Of a stretch of DNA of 64,000 nucleotides, positions 58,209-59,086 are shown in pieces. Positions within the stretch are counted from its first letter, which is position 1; the number at the start of each line of letters is the position of its first letter. The stretch spans positions 1-64,000 of the forward strand of contig CANIZL010000012.1 of NCBI GenBank assembly GCA_947471985.1, given 5' to 3'. Under the pieces are notes generated by a model. It saw only the letters and a program-made list of their open reading frames with translations. It searched no databases and had not been told where the DNA came from. Origin of the DNA: Verrucomicrobiota bacterium (GTDB lineage: Bacteria > Verrucomicrobiota > Verrucomicrobiia > Limisphaerales > UBA9464). The position numbers were made by a program, and so were the translations under genes.

Positions 58209-58382
58209 CCCCGCCAAACTGCCCCGCCAGCCTCACTCAGGGAAGGCTTTTGTCGGCCGAACGGGCCCCGGGATCCGCGTCAAAACGGGCCGCATCTCCG
58301 ATCCCGCATGGCCCGGGAAACCCGGAACCAAGTTTGACCGCGGCGTTTTCCCTGCTCTTTTGGAGCCCGTCGGTTATGAAAC

Positions 58383-58410
58383 GTAACAACGTCACCACAG
58401 TAACAGGTCA
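58383..58410. promoter_or_regulatory. Direct repeat GTAACA-GTCA, possible operator
   Basis: GTAACAACGTCA at 58383-58394 and GTAACAGGTCA at 58400-58410, 17 bases apart start to start. It lies in the divergent spacer about 175 bases before the CE15 gene start. A tandem binding site is possible. Confidence 0.35.
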
Positions 58411-58511
58411 GCGCCACTTCGGCGCCATGCCTTGTTCCTGGCTCCAGATTGAGCCAGCCGGGGTGAATCCGTTCGTTTCCCAGAAGTAACCGCTTCGACG
58501 CTTTCAGGAAA

Positions 58512-58547
58512 CCTCGGAACCCCAAAGGTTCCGAGGGTTTTTATTTT
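58512..58547 (+). terminator. Strong intrinsic terminator
   Basis: Perfect 10-base stem (CCTCGGAACC/GGTTCCGAGG, 58512-58521 and 58527-58536), loop CCAAA, followed by GTTTTTATTTT on the plus strand. On the other strand only three Ts follow, so it acts on plus-strand transcription. Confidence 0.88.
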
Positions 58548-58606: not shown

Positions 58607-58978
58607 ATGAAGACACCTTGGAATGAAACACCCCGGCCCTTCCGGTTGGGCCGCCCGAATGAGCCGCACGAGTTCCCCGCCGCCGTGGCCGGTGAGTACG
58701 ACATCACCGTGCCGTATGTCCGCACCCAGGAGCATCCGCTCGAAGTCCTGAAGAACCGCCTCCTGCGCGAGGTGCTGAGCGCCACCCAGGAGGCCGGCTT
58801 GCTGGCGCCGGTGCGGCGGGCGGCGAACGAAGCGGCCGCGCTGGCCTGGATGGAACCGTTCCCGCTGCTGGTGTTTCCCGAGCTGTTCGCGGAAAAGATC
58901 CTGACCGCCAACAGCCGGGTCCGGCAGCAACGGCACGTCCGCACCCGTACCGCCCGTTTGCTGGAGGCCTTCGCATGA
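58607..58978 (+). CDS. Unrecognised 123-residue protein between two strong terminators
   Basis: I do not recognise a family. The start MKTPWNETPRPFRLGRPNEP is Pro/Arg-rich, then EYDITVPYVRTQEHPLEVL and a mostly helical rest: KNRLLREVLSATQEAGLL, PVRRAANEAAALAWMEPFPL, LVFPELFAEKILTANS, ending in a basic segment (RVRQQRHVRTRTARLLEAFA). The C-terminal Arg-rich helix could bind nucleic acid. There is no membrane segment or Cys/His cluster. It is isolated by an upstream terminator (58512-58547) and a very long hairpin downstream (59023-59086). Codon use looks native. Confidence 0.65.
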   Translation: MKTPWNETPRPFRLGRPNEPHEFPAAVAGEYDITVPYVRTQEHPLEVLKNRLLREVLSATQEAGLLAPVRRAANEAAALAWMEPFPLLVFPELFAEKILTANSRVRQQRHVRTRTARLLEAFA

Positions 58979-59022: not shown

Positions 59023-59086
59023 CCCGGACGGTGGACGTCGACCCAGTGGCAGCGCCACTGGATGGACGTCCGCCGTCCGGGTTTTT
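59023..59086 (+). terminator. Exceptionally long terminator hairpin
   Basis: An outer 17-base-pair stem (59023-59039 with 59065-59081, one G-U) leads through a small internal loop to an inner stem CCAGTGGC/GCCACTGG with an AGC loop (59043-59061). TTTTT follows at 59082-59086. It lies 44 bases after the stop of the 123-aa gene. A 53-codon frame over it (58975-59136) is probably not coding. Confidence 0.8.

Follow-up and report, generated by a model that had tools for sequence, protein, structure and literature searches.

A probable ribosome-responsive transcription attenuator with a hardly conserved leader peptide upstream of a 123-aa protein gene in Verrucomicrobiota

Introduction

In the ilvB1 leader of Mycobacterium tuberculosis, the antiterminator is hidden by a ribosome that has reached the stop codon and can form when the ribosome stalls, according to the accessible part of the report (PMC13236596). 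The same part covers the attenuator of the whiB7/wblC genes of actinobacteria, in which ribosome stalling in an upstream open reading frame (uORF) induces the gene (PMC13236596). In Escherichia coli, the accessible text of another study describes a single uORF, toiL, located before topAI, which serves several antibiotic classes through stalling at several positions (PMC12121999). A further case, taken from the accessible portion of a study in Sinorhizobium meliloti, is the uORF before a DUF1127 gene, where transcription attenuation depends on the uORF and the small protein encoded has an unclear function (PMC12218461). The literature searched, with subscription journals mostly outside it, contained no general translation-stress attenuator family for Verrucomicrobiota and no report of the leader element described below.

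This element lies in a stretch of 64,000 nucleotides of verrucomicrobial DNA, hereafter the window, taken from contig 12 of a 6.38-Mb assembly in 180 contigs (genome G000). On the plus strand, it is followed by a gene for a protein of 123 aa (58607-58978). In this study, we compared the element among loci that carry a relative of this gene with respect to a promoter-like site, an open reading frame, a terminator, and a single RNA segment that can pair in either of two mutually exclusive ways. On the strength of this comparison of sequences, we propose that the element is probably a transcription attenuator in which the advance of a ribosome along a short leader ORF determines the transcription of the 123-aa gene.

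Results

A DNA similarity search with the element in 58 genomes gave only short matches outside G000, the best of them at E 0.0057. As the element diverges too fast for this kind of search, its relatives were sought by way of the 123-aa gene, which has relatives in 31 of the 50 genomes of the family; 60 further loci were fetched from genome contigs. The titles of these 60 records name Verrucomicrobia or a member group in 55 cases, some of them Limisphaerales, and just 'bacterium' in the other five. The 90 loci with the 123-aa gene were reduced by an 80-nt identity key to 74, which include the window's own locus and still contain near-identical strains (e.g., L052 and L053, or L035, L037, and L057). 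Three records that carry both the gene and the leader (L057, L073, and L074) are titled Akkermansia muciniphila, and these titles are probably wrong. For the structural comparisons, 38 of the 39 class-A loci were aligned as A2, and 21 of the 29 class-B loci, including the window, as A3, with the 20 others of A3 forming A4. The shuffle and permutation controls across loci still contain the kinship among them.

The intrinsic terminator of the window (58512-58547, plus strand; GTTTTTATTTT) consists of a 10-bp stem (58512-58521/58527-58536), the loop CCAAA, and a T-rich tail. Two internal stem-loops on the same strand, GCGCC-ACTTC-GGCGC at 58411-58425 and CTGGCTC-loop-GAGCCAG at 58438-58457, are both part of the minimum-energy fold. 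These three structures had been pointed out in an earlier reading of the DNA without comparison to relatives (the sequence-only reading), and all of them are present as described. The stretch 58371-58547 has a folding energy of -66.4 kcal/mol, compared with -47.9 kcal/mol in dinucleotide shuffles (z = -3.86), and beats 200 of 200 of them. The second stem-loop has a hairpin at its place in the computed consensus structure, with or without the window. The first is absent from that structure, and a GCGCC..GGCGC-like hairpin can be seen by eye at its place in several rows of A3.

Terminator-like sites are not rare in the window generally, as 18 were found against 12.1 ± 3.9 expected. It is the recurrence among relatives that raises this terminator above chance: judged by sequence, a strong terminator stands at the same place in 67 of the 73 other loci with the 123-aa gene, or 68 of 74 with the window. 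The common terminator of the relatives (CCCGCGA or CCCACGA type) was matched 52 times, every time before a 123-aa gene. The loci comprise 558,725 bases, and the other 49 pattern matches in them arise from these palindromic sites when the opposite strand is read. The stem in the window differs from this type in sequence. In six loci (L045, L046, L048, L049, L050, and L051), the 123-aa gene has neither leader nor terminator, and some members of the family seem to have lost the switch or never to have acquired it. The leader counts given below (n = 68) are without these six loci and include the window's; 8 of the terminator arms in the 68 were placed by eye.

The sequence-only reading had also held that the terminator had no gene to terminate. 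This view has to be given up, because the feature itself contains an ORF of 37 codons (58376-58489, plus strand; MKRNNVTTVTGQRHFGAMPCSWLQIEPAGVNPFVSQK), with its ATG at 58376 and a TAA at 58487-58489, behind a promoter-like site, and a like ORF is found in all 68 loci with the terminator. The promoter-like site (58334-58361, plus strand) is made up of TTGACC at 58334-58339, a 16-nt spacer, and TCTTTT at 58356-58361, with 8/12 consensus matches, and ends 14 nt before the leader ATG. Taken alone it is weak, and a consensus scan of the stretch gave no promoter-like site. Across the loci, TTGAC is found 21-60 nt upstream of the leader ATG in 67 of 68, compared with 2.1 expected from base shuffles. 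In the 65 loci that have TTGAC and a score of at least 8/12, the best-scoring -10 element ends 6-23 nt before the ATG, so that the transcript would start a few bases before the start codon; in the window, this start is likely near 58368.

In all 68 loci, the ORF has 30-45 codons and ends 15-28 nt before the terminator arm. A strict rule, whose limits were set after viewing the data (ATG, 34-46 codons, 13-30 nt before the terminator), is satisfied by 64 of 68 loci, compared with 2.2 when shuffled and 6 of 68 when the antisense strand is read. That frame 0 is free of stops follows by construction from the search; more telling are shuffles of these stretches, which have frame-0 stops in 36.6 of 68, and the two other frames, with stops in 61 of the 68 loci in frame +1 and in 28 in frame +2. 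The stop codons, TAA in 28 leaders, TAG in 24, and TGA in 16, occupy one fixed place; the start codons, some of them picked among alternatives, are ATG in 66 and GTG in 2. Shine-Dalgarno-like 4-mers precede five of the 68 leaders and 16 of the 68 gene starts. A leader-peptide attenuator calls for a translated leader ORF; the candidate for this role has defined ends and no internal stop in 68 of 68 loci. At L058 (2690-2851), the GGCAUCGUGGG motif is kept and the ORF ends in a different frame, so that RNA motif and frame part.

The sequence of the leader peptide is hardly conserved, and it appears nearly free to vary. Over 147 pairs, its pN/pS is 0.83 (0.78 outside the paired segments); the 123-aa gene, compared over the same pairs, has a value of 0.37. 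Frame-shifted controls for the leader gave 0.95 and, in the +2 frame, 0.83; as the latter value is equally low, substitution rates alone are no sign of coding. No stall codon and no amino acid is shared by all 68 leaders, and from residue -18 to -7 no amino acid occurs in every one, the commonest being G (64 of 68), S (58), and R (56). Nor do the leaders contain a run of one amino acid's codons, as an amino-acid-specific attenuator would. A class-A peptide profile recognised 39 of the 74 loci at E < 0.01 and missed the window, and it was replaced by place and frame.

The distance between the terminator and the 123-aa gene is short in many loci. With gene starts picked by script, the gene begins no more than 50 nt from the terminator in 38 of 68 loci and no more than 36 nt in 16 of 68, which leaves little room for a second promoter; at the shorter distance, the gene probably needs readthrough. 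These results bear on the idea that the element is a small-protein gene with its own promoter and terminator, next to which the 123-aa gene is just a neighbour. A conserved ORF with a promoter-like site and a terminator is what such a gene would look like. However, its peptide is nearly unconstrained, the pairing of the ORF end with the terminator arm described below is conserved, and in the 16 loci with the shorter distance the 123-aa gene probably needs readthrough, so we regard this explanation as decidedly unlikely.

The 123-aa protein belongs to a large family without a name. Of 7992 database candidates that were scored, 3634 are relatives of it at E ≤ 0.001, and none of the 120 listed is named beyond 'hypothetical protein'. 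The family has no sequence match in Pfam, NCBIfam, PHROG, or the PDB, and specifically the gene has no Pfam or NCBIfam match to a resistance factor or a WhiB protein. A confident three-helix core beginning at residue 44 is predicted (mean pLDDT 82.9, near 98 in the core), and a fold search of this model in the PDB gave no match (best E 3.9). In the window, a terminator-like site at 59058-59080 (plus strand) lies after the gene and before a lactate-racemase-like gene, and the transcript may end there as a one-gene transcript. In 58 loci, for which the 12 largest groups of neighbours were considered, no partner gene is constant: a related divergent gene lies upstream in 24, a same-strand downstream gene is shared by eight, and a convergent downstream gene, which we take to be murA-like, is found in 12.

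Within the last codons of the ORF, an 8-nt strand at positions -21 to -14, counted back from where the leader stop codon ends (segment 2; e.g., GUCGUGGG), pairs with the 5' arm of the terminator (segment 3, CCCGCGAU) in 470 of 544 cells (86%), and a shift of the register by 1 or 2 nt reduces this to 31-47% of cells. When the partners were swapped among loci, the maximum in 5000 trials was 462 paired cells, and Watson-Crick cells numbered 376.6 ± 4.8, compared with 408 observed. Changes on both sides are seen in GAUGUGG:CCACAUC (L035, L037, and L057) and AACGUGG:CCACGUU (L066). Seven loci are clear exceptions to the register, namely L022 (the window), L025, L032, L058, L064, L090, and L091. Taken locus by locus, the antiterminator differs from shuffles at p ≤ 0.05 in just 16 of 68, and within A2 alone the helix is too uniform for its covariation to go beyond shuffles (158 of 500 reach the observed value). 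The case for the antiterminator, as far as sequences can make it, is therefore built on its fixed place and on covariation across all 68 loci. In the family, this antiterminator is exclusive with the terminator and, in its fixed register, lies within reach of a ribosome on the ORF.

Segment 2 has a second possible partner in segment 1, codons 3-5 of the ORF, which read CCACG at ATG+7 in many class-A loci and elsewhere CCGCG, paired with CGCGG. This 1:2 helix was spotted in single-sequence folds and tested afterwards; its summed score is 1018, compared with 951.6 ± 19.9 with swapped partners and a maximum of 1009 in 300. In A2, the 1:2 helix, the inner hairpin, and the terminator together have 92.5% of their cells paired, and both-side changes occur in 11 of 25 pairs, compared with 4.7 when shuffled (0 of 500 reach the observed number). 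RNAalifold on A2 recovered no more than part of the inner hairpin and the terminator. Considered together, these pairings give the element the anatomy (1:2, 2:3, and 3:4) that characterises ribosome-mediated transcription attenuators; the classical codon run is missing.

A fold with several hairpins, covariation, and a strand able to join either the 1:2 or the 2:3 pairing would also be found in a riboswitch or another ligand-binding RNA, with the 1:2 stem and inner hairpins as its pocket and the ORF as a by-product; riboswitch expression platforms also use strand switching. However, Rfam gave no match at the gathering score either in the window or in 10 related loci, and the best sub-threshold match at E 10 was His_leader (E 1.3). 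A stop at a fixed place, realised by three different stop codons, with only frame 0 open across 68 loci, would also be unexpected in such an RNA. We consider a riboswitch unlikely and return to the attenuator.

The copy in the window is less regular than its relatives. The sequence-only reading had reported no antiterminator; the relatives have one at a fixed place, and the window has a weak, displaced candidate. Its strand (segment 2; CCGGGGT, 58458-58464, plus strand) can form 7 pairs, one of them G-U, with the segment 3 candidate at the terminator's 5' arm (ACCTCGG, 58511-58517, plus strand). The shuffle p of this pairing is 0.13, and the distance of the strand from the stop codon exceeds that in the relatives by 11 nt. 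The minimum-energy fold also contains a long-range stem between the start and the end of the ORF (58371-58492, plus strand; 58371-58377/58486-58492, 58378-58383/58474-58479, and 58392-58396/58462-58466), and this predicted stem is likely the counterpart of segment 1 pairing with segment 2. The window's leader may be drifting, or it may use the long-range fold differently.

Three covariance models were used to follow the element in genomes. Of 293 genomes from the order, R1, built from 38 class-A loci, matches 148 in full or in part at E ≤ 0.01; in a draw from the phylum, it matched two of 288 genomes at E ≤ 0.001, both weakly. R1 misses the copy in the window (0 matches in G000). R2, which includes the window and many loci of the family, matches 24 of the 50 genomes of the family over its full length at E < 1e-20, and seven of the 31 family genomes with the 123-aa gene have no such match. 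With R3, which was built without the window, 58374-58546 is the top match in the window (E 1.9e-8) and also ranks first genome-wide in G000 (E 1.9e-6). By its sequence, the window's copy is a diverged member of the leader family. Two strong copies of leader and gene (L142 and L139) occur in a single assembly, G052, as paralogues or through contamination.

All 30 loci fetched for the best R1 matches, some of them from genomes already in the locus set, have the 123-aa gene downstream; the terminator pattern is present in 29 of 30 and the leader ORF in 29 of 29 (at L129, by script, in another frame). Another 14 matches, picked by hand, consist of seven with the 123-aa gene, six leaders of ilvB or leuA type, and one chance match. 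From the downstream sequences, we take three of these six weak matches to precede ilvB-like genes and three to precede leuA-like genes, and some of the weak R1 matches in the order are likewise ilvB and leuA leaders. The match at L154 was discarded as an ordinary terminator after a different gene.

The sequence-only reading had offered either an independent small RNA or a regulated premature stop for the 123-aa gene. A terminated transcript would indeed be a small RNA of about 180 nt, ending at the terminator and stably folded. Yet the 123-aa gene follows in 30 of 30 of the best loci, the six ilvB and leuA cases precede other genes, whose leaders form kinds of their own, and a conserved antiterminator would be purposeless in a free RNA, which makes this function highly improbable as the main one. 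The second proposal has gained ground through the conserved leader ORF, the antiterminator of the relatives, and the closeness of the gene in more than half of the loci. The suggested search for covariation in relatives with the flanking gene was positive for 2:3 across the 68 loci, for 1:2, and for the helices of A2.

The constant association of leader and gene in these 30 loci would also suit autoregulation, with the 123-aa protein, or another protein, binding the leader RNA and favouring the terminator. Feedback through leader RNA is common for small RNA-binding proteins. This would leave the ORF unexplained, and the 123-aa protein matches neither a known family nor a solved fold; we therefore consider autoregulation very unlikely.

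Discussion

The arrangement of the three segments suggests how attenuation of the 123-aa gene might proceed. We infer translation of the leader, the direction of switching, and the signal, with the logic of ilvB1 as the model. An unhindered ribosome that arrives at the leader stop codon would cover segment 2, whose 3' end lies 10 nt before the stop, so that the terminator would form and transcription would end. If no ribosome were present, segment 1 would pair with segment 2, and the terminator would form again. A ribosome that is slow or stalled early in the ORF would block segment 1 and not segment 2; the 2:3 helix could then form, and RNA polymerase would read into the gene. As segment 1 is at the start of the ORF, an early-held ribosome is the state that would free segment 2.

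Because the peptide is nearly free to vary and no amino acid dominates in it, the leader likely responds to any slowing or block of translation and not to the shortage of one amino acid. A peptide-neutral leader of this kind suggests, by analogy, that translation speed as a whole is sensed, a role that the accessible text of the toiL study proposes for that uORF (PMC12121999). One may go further and imagine a sequence-neutral ribosome tachometer, whose ORF is a mere track and which controls an unrecognised, order-wide stress protein acting on or around the ribosome. Because this ORF would start only a few bases from the end of the transcript, such a leader would report how fast initiation and elongation proceed as such. 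We offer this extension tentatively and consider it rather doubtful as a whole. If it were true, Verrucomicrobiota would gain their first described family of general translation-stress attenuators, to judge from the literature searched.

Regardless of this extension, an orphan terminator has become a bounded and testable regulatory family. The expression of the 123-aa family is, to judge from its leaders, probably tied to the speed of the ribosome, and this link provides a concrete lead to the function of the protein.

Among the described systems, whiB7/wblC resembles the 123-aa leader in having a uORF before the gene. It differs in phylum, gene, and sequence. The toiL uORF is unlike the 123-aa leader in that it has eight codons and acts through the unmasking of a ribosome-binding site and Rho-dependent termination, as stated in the accessible text (PMC12121999). 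Attenuation by the DUF1127 uORF of S. meliloti is presumably Rho-dependent, according to the accessible portion of the report (PMC12218461), whereas the 123-aa leader has an intrinsic terminator and a covarying antiterminator.

Leaders of a similar layout are found within the same genome. In G000, contig C32 (L179) carries the leader MTVLFARLSLNALLLGSAAKGRA, with 23 codons, a run of Leu, and a terminator, and contig C101 (L184) carries the leader MQSRAIVVAVLVVGGLSAAGNGCA, with 24 codons, rich in Ile, Val, and Leu, also with a terminator. From their sequences, we take the downstream genes to be leuA and ilvB, respectively, and similar leaders stand before ilvB-like and leuA-like genes in six more loci. 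As in the 123-aa leader, a short leader ORF is followed by an intrinsic terminator and then by the gene. TTGAC is found upstream of the ilvB leaders and was not found at leuA of G000. In three leuA-type leaders, the partner of the terminator arm is found 16-23 nt before the ORF end, close to where segment 2 lies in the 123-aa leader. In contrast, the best contiguous helix with the terminator arm in four ilvB leaders lies 33-44 nt before the ORF end (L148 is outside this comparison). An earlier view by eye, which placed segment 2 at the ORF end in the ilvB leaders, was not confirmed by these computed helices, and the likeness in place is confined to leuA. The ilvB and leuA leaders contain runs of Val, Ile, and Leu codons and precede what we presume to be biosynthesis genes, whereas the 123-aa leader has no dominant amino acid and precedes a gene without a family match. 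The occurrence of such leaders before ilvB, leuA, and the 123-aa gene in one genome suggests that attenuation by leader ORFs is a working habit of these little-studied bacteria.
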